This document shows, in pieces, positions 8,096 through 14,272 of a DNA stretch of 64,000 nt. Source of the stretch: an uncultured Acidobacteriota bacterium (GTDB lineage: Bacteria > Acidobacteriota > Terriglobia > Bryobacterales > Bryobacteraceae); the NCBI GenBank assembly GCA_902825945.1, contig CADECY010000001.1, positions 62,001 to 126,000 of the forward strand, in the 5' to 3' direction. The notes below the pieces were generated by a model. That model had not been told where the DNA came from, searched no databases, and worked only from the letters and a program-made list of their open reading frames with translations. A program made the position numbers and the translations under genes. Position 1 is the stretch's first letter; every line of letters begins with the position of its first letter.

Positions 8096-9442
8096 TCAGT
8101 AGTCACGGAATGGACCGCGCGGTTCGCTCGCGTCCATCTCCTTGCGCCACGCCTGCCACTTGCCCTGCATCATCGCCGCTACCTCGGGTTTGCTGGAACT
8201 GAGATCGGCGGTTTCGCCCGGATCGGCGGAGAGATCGAACAGCCCTTTGCCGCCGCCGGAGTCGAGCCATTTCCACCGGCCCGATCGCGCGGCCTTGTCG
8301 CCCTGTTTCTGCCAGAACATCTCAGTCCGGGGCGATTTCGCCTTACCCTGAAGCACTGGCATCAGGTCGAACCCGTCGAGCTTCACCTTCGGCAGTGTCG
8401 TGCCGGCGGCCTTGGCGAATGTCGGCAACAGTTCGAGCGTGGTCGCGAATTCGTTCGTCACCTGGCCCTTGGGAATCTGGCCCGGCCACCGCGCCAGCAG
8501 CGGCACCCGATATCCGCCTTCCCAGAGGCTCGACTTGCCGCCACGCAGCGGACCGTTCTTCTTCCCCGTCCCGCCGTTGTCGCTCGAAAACATCACCAGC
8601 GTGTCGTTCTCCTGCCCCCGCGCGCGGACCTCGGCGAGGATCGCCCCCACCGCATCGTCGAGATGCGAAATCCATGCCTTATACAGCGCGCGCCGATCGT
8701 CCTTGTACATCGCCATGTACTTCGGCTCTTCCTGCTGCGCGGACTTGTCGAACGTCGAAGCTCCGTGCGGCGCGTTGAACGGAAGGTAGAGGAAGTAGGG
8801 ATTGCTGCCCGCCTCGCGAATGAAGCGGAGCGCCTCGCGCTGGAACAGATCGGTGGCATGACCCGGCTCCTGGATCCGATCGTTGCCCCGGAACATCGAC
8901 GGCACCCCGTAGCGCGCGTGCGTGTAGTAGTCGATGCCGGTGTTGGCGAAACCGTAGAAGAAATCGAAGCCGCGCTGAAGCGGCAGGAAGCGGCGCGCCC
9001 GCCCGCTGTCCCATTTGCCGATCACGCCCGTCCGGTATCCCGCGCTCTTCATCACTTGACCGATCGTGGTCTCGCGAGTGTCGAGCCCGAGCGTCATTTC
9101 AGGCGAGGTCGCGTAGTTCTCCTCGGTGAACTGGAACTTCCAGTTCACCTCGTTGTTGCGGATCATGTCGTAGAGCCCGTTGCGCTGCGGATAGCGGCCG
9201 GTGAGGATCGCCGATCGCGAGGGTGTGCAGGCGGGCCAGCAGACGGTGAAGTCGGTGAAGCGGACTCCATCCCGTGCGATGCCGTCGATGTTCGGAGACT
9301 TCACGGTCGCGTCGCCGGTGCATCCGAGATCGGCGTAACCGAGGTCATCGGCGAGAATGAAGATGATATTCGGTTTGCGGGTCTGCGCGGGAGCGGCAAG
9401 GGCGGACGCGGCGGAGGCGAGCCATTGGCGGCGGTCGATCAT
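8096..9442 (-). CDS. Arylsulfatase-type sulfatase, secreted
   Basis: 448 residues from ATG 9442. A short N-terminal segment DRRQWLASAASALAAP resembles a Tat-type export signal. The metal site begins with FILADDLGYADLG. The sulfatase signature CTPSR (Cys72) supplies the cysteine converted to formylglycine, and GRYPQRNGL completes the signature. Downstream, FSSDNGG and LARWPG are typical of the arylsulfatase A/N-acetylglucosamine-sulfatase group. It should hydrolyse sulfate esters on polysaccharides or glycans in the periplasm. A start further upstream (to 9547) would overlap the polyphosphate kinase gene and adds no homology. ATG 9451 is a close alternative. The GH16-like gene downstream fits glycan breakdown. 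Confidence 0.9.
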   Translation of the reverse strand: MIDRRQWLASAASALAAPAQTRKPNIIFILADDLGYADLGCTGDATVKSPNIDGIARDGVRFTDFTVCWPACTPSRSAILTGRYPQRNGLYDMIRNNEVNWKFQFTEENYATSPEMTLGLDTRETTIGQVMKSAGYRTGVIGKWDSGRARRFLPLQRGFDFFYGFANTGIDYYTHARYGVPSMFRGNDRIQEPGHATDLFQREALRFIREAGSNPYFLYLPFNAPHGASTFDKSAQQEEPKYMAMYKDDRRALYKAWISHLDDAVGAILAEVRARGQENDTLVMFSSDNGGTGKKNGPLRGGKSSLWEGGYRVPLLARWPGQIPKGQVTNEFATTLELLPTFAKAAGTTLPKVKLDGFDLMPVLQGKAKSPRTEMFWQKQGDKAARSGRWKWLDSGGGKGLFDLSADPGETADLSSSKPEVAAMMQGKWQAWRKEMDASEPRGPFRDY

Positions 9443-9449
9443 GCGGACC

Positions 9450-9455
9450 ATTATC
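9450..9455 (-). promoter_or_regulatory. Putative -10 element (GATAAT) for the sulfatase gene
   Basis: GATAAT on the minus strand is separated from ATG 9442 by the seven bases GGTCCGC. No Shine-Dalgarno sequence is visible, so a leaderless start is suggested. The element overlaps the alternative ATG at 9451, which argues for 9442. Confidence 0.4.
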
Positions 9456-9503
9456 GAACGTGCGCACGCCGCGCGCCAATGGGTGAACTCACCCACTCGG
9501 GCA

Positions 9504-10664
9504 CTATAACACCGGCCGTTCACCCCGTTCGTAGACGACATGAGCACGGCCCACCAGCAGCGGATCGAGCGGTCCGACGGATTCCAGGTTCTTGTTCGTA
9601 TACGGGAGCTTGTGCAGTACGTAGCGCATGGCGTTCAGACGCGCTCTCTTCTTGCAATCCGATTTGATCACGGTCCACGGCGAGTCGGCCGTATCGGTGT
9701 AGAAGAACACCGCTTCCTTGGCCTTCGTGTATTGATCCCATTTATCGAGCGAGGCCAAATCGACCGGCGACAGCTTCCATTGCTTCAATGGGTGCAGCCT
9801 TCTCTCCTGGAACCGCCGGCGTTGCTCATGACGGCTGACCGAAAACCAGAACTTGATCAGGTGGATACCACTGCGGACCAGATTACGCTCGAACTCCGGC
9901 ACCTGCCGCATGAACTCGGCGTACTCGTCCTCTGTACAAAATCCCATCACCTTCTCGACGCCCGCGCGGTTGTACCAGGAACGGTCGAACATGACGATCT
10001 CGCCAGCGGTCGGGAGTTCGGAGACGTAGCGCTGGAAGTACCATTGGCCCCGCTCCACCTCGCTCGGCTTCTCGAGCGCCACCACGCGGGCGCCGCGCGG
10101 ATTGAGGTGCTCCATGAAGCGCTTGATGGTGCCGCCCTTGCCCGCCGCGTCGCGCCCTTCGAACAGGATCACCACACGCTGTCCGGTGGCTTTCACCCAT
10201 GCCTGCAACTTCAGCAGTTCGACCTGGAGGCGGTACTTGTGCCTTTCGTAGTTCTTCCGCGACAGCAGGTTCTTGTACGGATAGCCACCTTCTCGCCAGT
10301 CCGGCGAAAGTTCGTCGTCGCGTTTGCGCAACAGGCCGTCCTGGATCAGGTCCTCTCGCTTGCGCAGCGTCTTGCGGAGCATCGCCAAATCATCGCCGGA
10401 AGCCCCTGCGATCATTGCCTCGAAGCGTTCGAGCAGCGCCGCCCGCTGGGCTTCGGGCTCGGCGGCCACCGCCGCCTCGATTATCTCCGCGACAGCGGCG
10501 GACTTTGCAAACTGTGCCGATTCAGTCGACTGCCGGATCTCGAACGACGCGATTCCGCGCTCGGACTGGACCGGAGCCACGTCGCCCTTCACGGCCGGTC
10601 TCGCGACCGCCGGGGCGCCAATCGCGCCGTTGGGTCGAGTGGAGGTACGAGTGGTTCTGGACAT
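9504..10664 (-). CDS. ppk2: Polyphosphate kinase 2
   Basis: About 386 residues, from ATG 10664 (a TTG two codons earlier is possible). An N-terminal extension of about 125 residues, low in recognisable motifs, precedes the PPK2 P-loop-kinase core. Walker A is GRDAAGKGGTIKRF, the following loop gives PRGARVVALEKPSEVE, and Walker B is FDRSWYNRAGVE. A basic lid region contains QERRLHPLKQWKLSP. One full PPK2 domain suggests class I, which phosphorylates nucleoside diphosphates with polyphosphate. It acts in the cytoplasm in energy and phosphate balance. It appears to be a single-gene unit, convergent with nothing and 38 bp downstream of the isomerase-like gene. Confidence 0.92.
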   Translation of the reverse strand: MSRTTRTSTRPNGAIGAPAVARPAVKGDVAPVQSERGIASFEIRQSTESAQFAKSAAVAEIIEAAVAAEPEAQRAALLERFEAMIAGASGDDLAMLRKTLRKREDLIQDGLLRKRDDELSPDWREGGYPYKNLLSRKNYERHKYRLQVELLKLQAWVKATGQRVVILFEGRDAAGKGGTIKRFMEHLNPRGARVVALEKPSEVERGQWYFQRYVSELPTAGEIVMFDRSWYNRAGVEKVMGFCTEDEYAEFMRQVPEFERNLVRSGIHLIKFWFSVSRHEQRRRFQERRLHPLKQWKLSPVDLASLDKWDQYTKAKEAVFFYTDTADSPWTVIKSDCKKRARLNAMRYVLHKLPYTNKNLESVGPLDPLLVGRAHVVYERGERPVL

Positions 10665-10701
10665 ATTCAACTTAGCGGTGCAATTCGGTTACCATCTCGA
10701 T

Positions 10702-11517
10702 CTATGCCACGATCGCAACCAGATCGAAGACCCGAAGCCCGAGTCCGCGATCACCCTCGAGCATCGAAAGAGCGAGAGCCTCCTCGCGCGAGATGCCCTT
10801 GGTGAACACCCGCCACGCGATCGCTTCGGGCATCTCGACTCGTGCCGTGAAAGAGCCTTGCAGTCCTGCGGCGATCCAGCGTGTCTCCTCGCGCTCGATG
10901 ACCCAACGTCCGCCGCATTCGCCCACGACGTCCAGGCAGACGCGCGATCCCACCGCGGTGGAGGCTTCGCGGTAGGCGTGCGGGAGCCCCCGGGCGAAGG
11001 TATCGAGTACGGGCCGGTACAATTCAGGAGTCATGATCCCCGGCCGGTTCACCGCCAGCCGGATCTGCTGCTGATGGTGCCAGCGCTCGGTCAGTTCCCG
11101 TGCCGTGTCGAACCAGTTCAGTGACTCCGCCTCGCCAGCCCAACTGACGGCGAAGGCGGCTCGCCCCAGCGGGTCGAGCGACTCGTGGAAATCCGCGCTC
11201 TGCTCGCACGTGGTTCGCATCAGGAGGCACAGGATCGACGGGCTCAAACGGCGATAGACGGCGACGCCCTCGGGGTTCAGCCGGTTCACCAGATCGGCCA
11301 CGTCCCGAGCCGCACGGATCTCGACCCGCTCGACAACGCAGCCGTCGCGGACCATCGCGAGCTTCCGGAGCGCGGTGTCGAGCAGATGCGCCGCAACGTC
11401 CCGAACCTTCCAGCCGCGCACGATCGTCGGCAGGTCCCACTCGTGAGGCGCAAGCGATTCCAGCAGTTCGATCAGCTTCTGATCGGTCTTGCGAATGAGA
11501 TGAGCGGTGACGATCAT
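10702..11517 (-). CDS. Maleylpyruvate isomerase N-terminal (MDMPI/DinB-fold) family protein
   Basis: 271 residues from ATG 11517. The ATG overlaps the gluQ stop as ATGA, which indicates translational coupling. The N-terminal half resembles the four-helix MDMPI/DinB fold: [17 protein letters not shown], then [14 protein letters not shown], which carries the typical metal-ligand histidine. Such proteins are thiol-dependent (mycothiol or bacillithiol) isomerases or transferases, but many members are uncharacterised. A frame extending upstream to 11808 is open but lies inside gluQ, so it is not used. It is last in a three-gene overlapping run with gluQ and a nucleotidyltransferase. Confidence 0.75.
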
Positions 11518-12350
11518 TCCTGCTTCCATGCGGAGATCCCCCATTTCCAGAGTGCCCGCAATTCGCCGGTTTCCGGCGGATCGAGTCCGAGAAAGCGCAT
11601 CGCCCGCACCAGTTCCGGCGCCGGGTGTTCCTCGTCGAGCGCCGGAGCCTTCGTCTGTTTGCTCAGCTTGTCTCCGTTCGCATCGCGCGCGATCGGCAGG
11701 TGGAGATACGACGGCGTGGGCACGCCGAGAGCGCGCTGGAGGCAGATCTGGCGTGCGGTCGAATCGAGCAGATCCTCGCCGCGCACGATGTCGGTGATTC
11801 CCTGCCATGCGTCGTCAACGACCACCGCAAGCTGATAGGCCCAGTAACCGTCGGCGCGAAAGAGAACGAAGTCGCCGCAGGTTTCCGAAAGCCGCTCGGT
11901 GCACTCGCCGAGCCGGCGGTCGCGGAATCGAATGGGCTCGGTGCCGGTCCGCAGCCGCCAGGCGCGAGCACCGCGGCCCGGCGGGAGCCCATCGCGGCAG
12001 ATTCCCGGATAGGGACCCTCGCCCGCTTCGCGCCGCGTGCAGCCGCAAGGGAAGGCAGTGCCAGCGTGCTTCAGTGACTCGAGCACCTGCCCGTAGGTAC
12101 CGAATCGCGAGGTCTGATAAACCACCGGACCATCCCACTCGAGCGCGTACCGTTCGAGCGTTCGCAGGATCCGATCGGCGGCTCCCGGAGCGTTCCGGGG
12201 AATGTCGATATCCTCGATCCGGACCAACCATTCGCCCCCACGCGACTTCGCGTCGAGATAGCTTCCCACCGCCGCGACGAGCGACCCGAAATGCAACGGA
12301 CCCGTGGGAGACGGGGCGAATCTTCCTCGATACTGGACGCCTGGCGTCAC
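11514..12350 (-). CDS. gluQ: Glutamyl-Q tRNA(Asp) synthetase
   Basis: 278 residues, the length of a GluRS paralog lacking the anticodon-binding domain. The class I signature appears as [13 protein letters not shown] (HIGH equivalent) and KLSKQ (KMSKS equivalent). A zinc-type cluster, [17 protein letters not shown], sits between them. The enzyme attaches glutamate to queuosine at the wobble position of tRNA(Asp). The start is GTG at 12350, overlapping the upstream stop as GTGA, and its own stop overlaps the next ATG. It is therefore translationally locked into the run with the nucleotidyltransferase and the MDMPI-like gene. Confidence 0.92.
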
Positions 12351-13057
12351 CCGTCCAACAGATCCTCCGCCACCGCGATATCGCCCGGCCGGCCCACGTC
12401 ACGCCAGGCGCCTTCGAGCCCGTGCACGAGCACCCGCAACCCGCGTTCGAGCAACTGCTCCACCGCGCTCGTGACCTCGTACTCGCCCCGCGGCGAACGG
12501 GGCACGCGCGCCATCTCGACGAAGGCGGATTCGCGGAAGCAGTAGGCGCCCGCGCTGTTCCAGTGCGTCGCCGAAGTTCCGATCGGCGGCTTTTCGATAA
12601 TCCGGCTGACCCGGCCCGATTCATCGGCGTAGATCGCGGCGCCCTGCCACGGATCGTCCACCCATTTCGCCGAGAGCACCGCTTCGATATCGGGCGTCAT
12701 CTTCGCCGCCATGGCACGATAGTCCGCTGATTCGGTCAGGATGTCGCCGTAGGTGAGCAAGAACGGGTCCGCCGCCGCGAAATCGCGCCCCAGCAGCGCC
12801 GCACGCGCCGTGCCGTCGATCGTTTCTTGGCGGCGATACTCGATTCGCATCGGATAACCGCGAAAGTGCGCCTCGATCATGTCGGCCTTGTAGCCGGTGA
12901 CGAGGAGCGCTTGCGAAAAGCCCGCCTCGCGCAACCGGTCGAGAATGTGTTCGAGCATCGGCTTGTCCCGTAGCACGATCATCGGCTTCGGCCGGTCCTC
13001 GGTGAGCCCTTCCATGCGCGTTCCGCGGCCCGCGGCCAAAATGATCGCCTTGTCCAC
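12347..13057 (-). CDS. Sugar-1-phosphate nucleotidyltransferase
   Basis: 236 residues with the NTP-transferase fold. [20 protein letters not shown] at the N-terminus carries the nucleotide-binding GxGTR loop and the PKP lysine. YGDILTES supplies the metal-binding Asp. It activates a sugar or alditol phosphate to an NDP-derivative for cell-surface polysaccharide synthesis; the exact sugar cannot be told. The start is GTG at 13057. It is divergent from an MFS gene across only 18 bp and is first in the overlapping run with gluQ. Confidence 0.85.
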
Positions 13058-13075
13058 TTCCTCTATAATCGCTCA
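13058..13075. promoter_or_regulatory. Compact bidirectional promoter with overlapping -10 elements
   Basis: The 18 bp between two divergent GTG starts contain TATAAT (13064-13069) on the plus strand, six bases before GTG 13076. On the minus strand they contain GATTAT (13070-13065), seven bases before GTG 13057. The two -10 elements share five base pairs. Neither side has room for a leader. No convincing -35 is visible on the plus side. Confidence 0.55.
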
Positions 13076-14272
13076 GTGACTTCGAACCGCTGGTGGATCG
13101 TGGCGCTGCTGTTCATCGCCACGACGGTGAACTACCTCGACCGCATTCTCTTCTCCGTTCTGATCCCAGTGATCCGGGGCGAAATGCACATATCCGATCA
13201 GGAGTACGGCTACATCAACGGAGCCTTCCAGATCGCCTATACGATCGGCTTCCTGTTCATGGGCAAGTTCATCGATTCCGTAGGGACACGGATCGGATAC
13301 GCGGTAGCCGTCGCGTGGTGGTCGCTCGCGGCGATGCTGCACACCGCGGCCGGCAGCGGCTTCGGACTCGGATTCTGGCGTGCCATGCTCGGGCTGGGCG
13401 AAGCCGGCAATTTCCCGGCCGCGGTCAGGACGGTGGCCGAATGGTTCCCCAAGGAACAGCGCGCGCTCGCCACGGGCTGGTTCAACGCCGGATCGAATGT
13501 CGCGTCGATGGTCGGACCGCCACTGTTCATCTGGGTTACGGCCAACTGGGGCTGGCGCGTCTGCTTCGTCGCGACGGCCATGTCGGGTCTGCTCTGGATG
13601 ATCCTGTGGCTCTCCACCTATCGCGCGCCGGCCGAAAAGACGGATGGCCCCCGCGAGCCCCAGATCGGCTGGACGGACGCTCTTCGCCACCGGCAAACCT
13701 GGGGCTTTGCGGTCGCGAAGTTCCTGACCGATCCGGTCTGGTGGTTCTATCTCTACTGGCTGCCTCCGTACTTTTACGATGTGCGCAAATTCAAGCTCGC
13801 CGAGATCGCGTGGGCCCTGCCATTCATCTACCTCATGGCCGATTTCGGAAGCGTCGGCGGCGGCTGGCTCTCCGGTTTCCTGATCCGCCGCGGATGGCCC
13901 AACGGCCAAGCCCGCAAGATGGCGATGGGCCTGTGCGCCGCGCTGATGCCGATCGCGGCCTGCGCGGCGCTGGTGGAAGACCGGGTGCTCGCGGTACTGC
14001 TCGTGAGCGTCGCCACGGCGGCACACCAAGGCTGGTCGGCGAATCTCTACACGACCACATCCGACGTGTTTCCCAAGAAAGCCATCGCCTCCGTGACGGG
14101 CATCGGGGGATGCCTCGGCGGACTCGGTGGCTTTCTCTTTTCAGCCGTGATCCCCGGTTACGTGGTCACGCACTTCGGGTACACGCCCGTGTTTCTGACG
14201 ATGGGCACGTTCCACTTGATCGCTCTCGTGTTCGTGCACCGGCTGCTCGGCGACATGAAGCCGGTCGAGTAG
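13076..14272 (+). CDS. MFS transporter, anion:cation symporter (hexuronate-like) type
   Basis: 398 residues with about twelve hydrophobic segments. The N-terminal helix contains the ACS-type sequence TTVNYLDRILFSVLIPVI, followed by the conserved loop in GLGEAGNFPAAVRTVAEWFPKEQRA. Both are typical of the hexuronate/galactonate transporter group in the inner membrane. The substrate is likely a sugar acid or small organic anion (inference). The start is GTG at 13076, directly preceded by the TATAAT element described for the shared promoter. It converges on the next gene with two bases between stop codons; those stops lie in the palindrome AGTAGCGCTACT. Confidence 0.88.
   Translation: MTSNRWWIVALLFIATTVNYLDRILFSVLIPVIRGEMHISDQEYGYINGAFQIAYTIGFLFMGKFIDSVGTRIGYAVAVAWWSLAAMLHTAAGSGFGLGFWRAMLGLGEAGNFPAAVRTVAEWFPKEQRALATGWFNAGSNVASMVGPPLFIWVTANWGWRVCFVATAMSGLLWMILWLSTYRAPAEKTDGPREPQIGWTDALRHRQTWGFAVAKFLTDPVWWFYLYWLPPYFYDVRKFKLAEIAWALPFIYLMADFGSVGGGWLSGFLIRRGWPNGQARKMAMGLCAALMPIAACAALVEDRVLAVLLVSVATAAHQGWSANLYTTTSDVFPKKAIASVTGIGGCLGGLGGFLFSAVIPGYVVTHFGYTPVFLTMGTFHLIALVFVHRLLGDMKPVE

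Follow-up and report, generated by a model that had tools for sequence, protein, structure and literature searches.

A putative shared promoter in the 18-bp gap between divergent MFS transporter and nucleotidyltransferase genes of an uncultured Acidobacteriota bacterium

In the 64,000-nucleotide stretch of DNA analysed here, referred to as the window, a gene for an MFS transporter and a gene for a sugar-1-phosphate-type nucleotidyltransferase diverge from GTG start codons that are separated by just 18 bp, a spacing stated in a preliminary description of this DNA and confirmed from the sequence and its open reading frames. This raises the question of how both genes may be transcribed, i.e. whether each of them has a promoter of its own or whether both depend on the short gap between them. 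We consider it probable that the gap is a bidirectional sigma-70-type promoter and that both of its mRNAs are leaderless (0-1 nt).

The gap, its flanking genes and the two -10 boxes

In both genes the GTG is the sole in-frame ATG, GTG or TTG codon from the upstream stop codon to a point three to five codons inside the gene (Table 1). Among the matches listed (25 of 43 and 25 of 35) no NCBIfam model reaches its cut-off for either protein, and function names finer than Pfam level were therefore dropped for both. From the "MFS importer" of the preliminary description the MFS assignment can be kept, based on the MFS_1 match, whereas import is a putative function, and the "sugar nucleotidyltransferase run" turns out to be a single nucleotidyltransferase gene followed by a tRNA-synt_1c gene. 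The product of the latter is presumably GluQ-like, judging by its size, and the gene is probably co-transcribed with the nucleotidyltransferase gene on one minus transcript. Among its named relatives, the six most similar to the nucleotidyltransferase (58-71% identity) come from MAGs labelled Acidobacteria, Acidobacteriales or Bryobacterales. Elsewhere in the window, at 9504-10670 on the minus strand, a gene for a PPK2-family polyphosphate kinase adjoins a sulfatase gene (8096-9547), which is an ordinary arrangement.

Table 1. Coordinates of the locus and of three further compact divergent pairs; positions without a prefix are those of the window.
Feature	Position	Strand	Description
Intergenic gap, proposed complete shared promoter core	13058..13075		18 bp between the two start codons; sequence TTCCTCTATAATCGCTCA
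MFS transporter gene	13076-14272	+	GTG start, 398 aa; MFS_1; top NCBIfam match TIGR00893 2A0114 does not reach its cut-off
Sugar-1-phosphate-type nucleotidyltransferase gene	12347-13057	-	GTG start, 236 aa; PF00483
tRNA-synt_1c protein gene	11514..12350	-	4-bp overlap with the nucleotidyltransferase gene
-10 box TATAAT for the MFS gene	13064-13069	+	6 bp ahead of GTG
Putative -10 box GATTAT of the nucleotidyltransferase gene, in reverse orientation	13070-13065	-	7 bp ahead of GTG; -11A and -7T present, -12T absent
Predicted plus transcription start	13076	+	G of GTG, leader 0 nt; from the 7-bp step after the -10 box
Predicted minus transcription start	13058	-	A one base ahead of GTG, leader 1 nt; from spacing
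Compact divergent pair	C2:75329-75346 (L073:15329-15346)		18-bp gap if the minus gene starts at TTG, with ATG directly after; TAGAATA; TAGAAT/TATTCT overlap
Compact divergent pair	C4:52734-52754		ATTATAAT; flanked by genes for an amidohydrolase and for a 516-aa protein with no Pfam match
Compact divergent pair	C2:128021-128049		ATTATAAT; overlapping boxes

Warman et al. (2021, Nat Microbiol) are reported to have described bidirectional promoters in bacteria whose two directions share a -10 element. The two boxes in the gap overlap by five bp, as had been noted before (common base pairs 13065-13069), and the predicted starts, placed 7 bp beyond the final base of either box, are 18 bp apart. The -11A and the -7T of both directions fall on the same two base pairs, i.e. 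13065 (A on the plus, T on the minus strand) and 13069 (T on the plus, A on the minus strand), which is one of the features of Warman-type promoters. Moreover, owing to the base pair at 13058 the plus direction has a T at -18. In the minus direction both -12T and -18T are missing, and GATTAT matches the consensus at 4 of 6 positions. A TANNNT motif 6-8 bp ahead of the start codon is found for the plus gene (gap 6); at the minus gene GATTAT, with a gap of 7, has A2 and T6 and no T1. Within 12800-13300 no -35 element and no sigma-70 hexamer pair matching at 9 of 12 positions or better was detected, and no operator-like inverted repeat spans the gap, the matches listed being TTCGAA at 13081-13086 and four others, inside coding regions.

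If the gap works in both directions, one near-symmetrical -10 element without a recognisable -35 would form the entire promoter. Polymerase bound one way would melt TATAAT and start at the G of the MFS GTG, polymerase bound the other way would use GATTAT, with the same two base pairs as its -11A and -7T, and start at or one base ahead of the nucleotidyltransferase GTG. The two orientations of polymerase would be mutually exclusive in occupancy, and both leaderless mRNAs would be translated without a Shine-Dalgarno site.

TATAAT has 16 copies in 464 kb of the genome, both strands included, which corresponds to a chance of about 0.0002 for a plus-strand copy in a given 18-bp gap. TATAATC occurs once in the window, with 0.77 copies expected per 64 kb, so that the 7-mer alone is unremarkable and its position is what counts. 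In this respect it is relevant how -10 boxes are placed in the rest of the genome, and leaderless-type spacing is common there. In the whole assembly the distances from TATAAT to RTG, counted from 2 to 20 bp, are most frequent at 6 bp (19 of 144); 10 and 12 bp are also well filled (14 and 13), i.e. short leaders occur too. Among sites with a gap of 5-8 bp, 38/43 lead into an open reading frame of at least 80 aa with a codon score above 5, a result reached by 1579/5000 random ATG/GTG codons, codons inside genes included. A simple script called 319 genes in the 464 kb (0.69 per kb, some being missed), and ahead of these genes TA.AAT is found at gap 6 in 7 cases vs 1 for the reversed motif and at gap 9 in 8 vs 2, whereas the looser TA...T is enriched at gap 6 (24 vs 12 in the control) and falls below the control at gap 9 (16 vs 21). 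Coding open reading frames that diverge leftward within 10 bp of the box are found in the window and at C2:38930, C37:35800, C40:48615 and C4:52741/52744, the last being a single site entered once per strand; at C158:9005 the distance is 22 bp.

Conservation in the family

Orthologues of the minus gene were searched in 237 genomes of the family (E<=1e-60) and are present in 70; together with L151, a truncated copy adjoining an MFS orthologue, this gives 71 loci. In 26 of them, the window included, the MFS gene diverges within 500 bp, in the other 45 it does not. The 26 divergent pairs are spread over 11 genera and are thus not independent of each other. In the genus of the window, two other genomes were searched and the pair is kept in neither: the orthologues lie on different contigs in G001, and in G002 the minus gene has no orthologue that reaches E<=1e-60.

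The plus side is conserved throughout. TATRAT is kept in all 26 divergent pairs (25 TATAAT, one TATGAT), and in every one of them it is followed by an in-frame MFS start codon after 6 bp (7 loci), 7 bp (16 loci) or 8 bp (3 loci), some loci having further MFS start codons downstream of the one counted. When the anchor is shifted by multiples of 3, only 0-5 of the 26 loci have a start at these distances. On the minus side the nucleotidyltransferase start lies 6-8 bp from the reverse box in 15/26 loci and 9 bp from it in three, i.e. at 6-9 bp in 18/26, the window included; the remaining distances are 12 bp (2 loci), 21-22 bp (2 loci), 44 bp (3 loci) and 0 bp (1 locus). For L035, L036 and L041 the distance was counted from a TTG, with an ATG also present at 0 bp, and in L049 a TTG lies 6 bp and an ATG 9 bp from the box. 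As the shifted-anchor control gives 0-12 of 26 here vs 15 at the true position, with counts of 12 (+18) and 6 (+15) for anchors that fall within the gene, the nucleotidyltransferase-start distances are weaker evidence than the MFS-start distances. Nine relatives in the genera g56 and g59 likewise have a gap of exactly 18 bp, with GATTAT exactly 6 bp ahead of an ATG. In L042 the nucleotidyltransferase ATG directly abuts GATTAT, so that the box cannot serve this minus gene, which needs another promoter; its MFS gene keeps TATAAT 7 bp ahead of a GTG.

The bidirectional leaderless promoter put forward in the preliminary description has thereby gained the geometry, the 26 pairs in 11 genera and the leaderless spacing of the genome in its favour, and the case for the plus gene is strong, whereas that for the minus gene is weaker, given a box that agrees with the consensus at four positions, the missing -12T and the contradicting arrangement of L042.

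The reverse direction and rival explanations

Since the plus box is so well kept, the question narrows to whether the reverse face is more than its mirror image. An unlikely, yet the most serious, rival holds that the promoter works one way, i.e. that TATAAT drives the MFS gene only, giving a leaderless transcript, that the nucleotidyltransferase gene is transcribed from a promoter of its own within the 5' region of the MFS gene, and that GATTAT is a by-product of the symmetry of TATAAT. The base after TATRAT is consistent with this, being C in 25 of the 26 divergent loci, G in one and never A, so that the reverse -12T is absent from all 26 and selection for a consensus reverse box is not visible in this register. 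Likewise, another site or a leader is needed in L042 and in the three loci whose starts lie 44 bp from the box. The -10 box is, moreover, also kept where the MFS gene has no divergent neighbour: TANNNT stands 5-9 bp ahead of an in-frame start in 14/26 such loci, namely in 13/18 of the closer ones (57% identity or more) and 1/8 of the distant ones, and is absent in 12/26.

Several observations argue against a one-way promoter. The region searched around the gap holds no promoter-like sigma-70 site for the separate promoter, and in 18/26 divergent loci the reverse start lies 6-9 bp from the box. A Shine-Dalgarno sequence directly abutting the start codon is too close for normal function, and this is the situation of AGAGGAA, which abuts the GTG. 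A further contrast comes from a position just outside the plus box. An A two bases ahead of it, creating a reverse TATAGT or TATACT (CATAGT in L039), is found in 20/26 divergent loci, whereas such a reverse box is present in 1/14 MFS loci that have a box but no divergent neighbour (Fisher p 3e-5, calculated over loci; the 14 compared are those of the 26 with TANNNT at 5-9 bp, the other 12 being left out). Tallied by genus, the divergent loci have the A in 7 genera, lack it in 3 and are mixed in 1. The rarity of this box in non-divergent orthologues suggests selection on the reverse side. The window itself has a T at this position and thus belongs to the 6 divergent loci without a TATAGT/TATACT-type box.

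It is much less probable that the region is bidirectional with the minus gene using something other than GATTAT, i.e. either another register, e.g. TATAGA (13067-13062) with its unusual start distance, or an activator-dependent site or regulator in the 5' region of the MFS gene. Relatives do vary in register, and TATAGT, the counterpart of TATAGA, fits four of them, L037, L047, L049 and L151, in which the start is 6 bp away. In the nine g56/g59 loci this register puts the start only 3 bp away, so that it does not explain all loci, and in the window TATAGA was rejected as the minus box, as it lies only 4 bp from the GTG and has no -7T. The short palindrome TTCGAA might be read as an activator site, but with 6 bp it is common by chance. 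It is very improbable that TATAAT matches by chance and that the gap drives transcription of neither gene, as the near-expected number of TATAATC copies in 64 kb is outweighed by a box conserved in all 26 pairs at a fixed distance to an in-frame start. We therefore retain the shared two-way promoter as the preferred explanation.

Compact divergent pairs and known systems

The window pair is one of several compact pairs. Among 47 divergent neighbour pairs called in the 464 kb, four have called gaps of 18-29 bp, i.e. the window and the three further pairs of Table 1. All four contain overlapping boxes, and three of them have a strict TANNNT on both strands, with box-to-start limits of 4-12 bp that were chosen after the four pairs had been seen; 16 pairs with gaps under 18 bp or overlapping genes were left out, their start choice being uncertain. 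Random stretches of 18, 21 and 29 bp pass in the strict form, i.e. including the reverse -12T, in 28, 53 and 54 of 20000 cases (0.1-0.3%), and in the relaxed form, which does not require this T and which is the form the window needs, in 280 (1.4% for 18 bp), 415 and 97 of 20000. The next divergent pair, with a 32-bp gap, has no overlapping boxes. In the C4 gap the palindromic ATTATAAT (L081:12739-12746, C4:52739-52746) provides a TATAAT on either strand, at 5-8 bp from the starts, and this gap is thus more symmetrical than that of the window. The product of the minus gene at C2:75329-75346 has a Wzt_C domain.

Over the 237 genomes CAY-N6-TATAAT-N6-RTG has 116 matches vs 25 for the reversed pattern. 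However, with CAY moved to 15 bp there are still 88 matches vs 35, the 6-bp form being 1.3 times as common, so that much of the excess of the 6/6 form reflects one-sided leaderless spacing. Of 20 sites sampled systematically from the 116, 12 have a coding open reading frame downstream and 3 have one on either side, by codon scores trained on the genome of the window. In view of the 15-bp control and the 3/20 two-sided cases, we do not claim that sites with exact 6/6 spacing form a large class across the family. What we would tentatively propose, with somewhat more doubt than confidence, is that leaderless expression lets divergent pairs in this family reduce their whole regulatory region to a single -10 element (18-29 bp) that both genes share, both of its faces being under selection, and that the window pair is one old example, found in 11 genera, in which each start codon would be placed by a promoter that also serves the neighbour.

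Searching the literature, we found no start-site map for Acidobacteriota among the matches listed, and no description of a doubly leaderless bidirectional promoter in open-licence papers, which is weak evidence of absence. The two components of such a design are each known. The shared -10 geometry occurs in E. coli and Salmonella (PMC12825309, PMC10268837, both as excerpted): opposed starts are 7-25 bp apart and mostly 18, a spacing at which -7 and -11 coincide reciprocally, and a -18T helps (excerpts of PMC10268837). In E. coli 18 bp is likewise given as the commonest start-to-start distance, and as these promoters have a low basal activity and show little interference as long as transcription does not rise, competition between polymerases is not to be assumed (excerpts of PMC12825309). 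Leaderless genes, in turn, have TANNNT about 12 bp ahead of the start in bacteria and were found in 3/3 Acidobacteria genomes, at 13.3% on average (Zheng et al. 2011, PMC3160421, in the parts available).

Like the leaderless TANNNT genes of PMC3160421 and, for Deinococcus-Thermus, PMC12340547, as far as excerpts of both describe them, the plus gene of the window has its first T about 12 bp upstream and no clear -35; in contrast, single genes are treated there (the main text of PMC12340547 uses neither "bidirectional" nor "divergent"), and the minus box of the window has no first T. With Warman-type promoters the gap has in common the overlapping -10 boxes, the reciprocal -7T and -11A, the 18 bp between the predicted starts and the plus -18T. 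It differs in the missing reverse -12T and reverse -18T, in starts that are predicted from sequence, in transcripts of protein genes that are predicted to be leaderless with 0-1 nt, and in start codons that flank the promoter core. If both transcripts are real, the 18 bp would be a two-way promoter of very small size, serving two protein genes whose mRNAs have next to no leader, and the locus would be a clean natural construct for studying the competition of opposed polymerases and the use of leaderless GTG codons in Acidobacteriota. The gap thus looks like a real case of a known kind, the bidirectional -10 promoter, here with both transcripts predicted to be leaderless, i.e. a combination of two already known designs.
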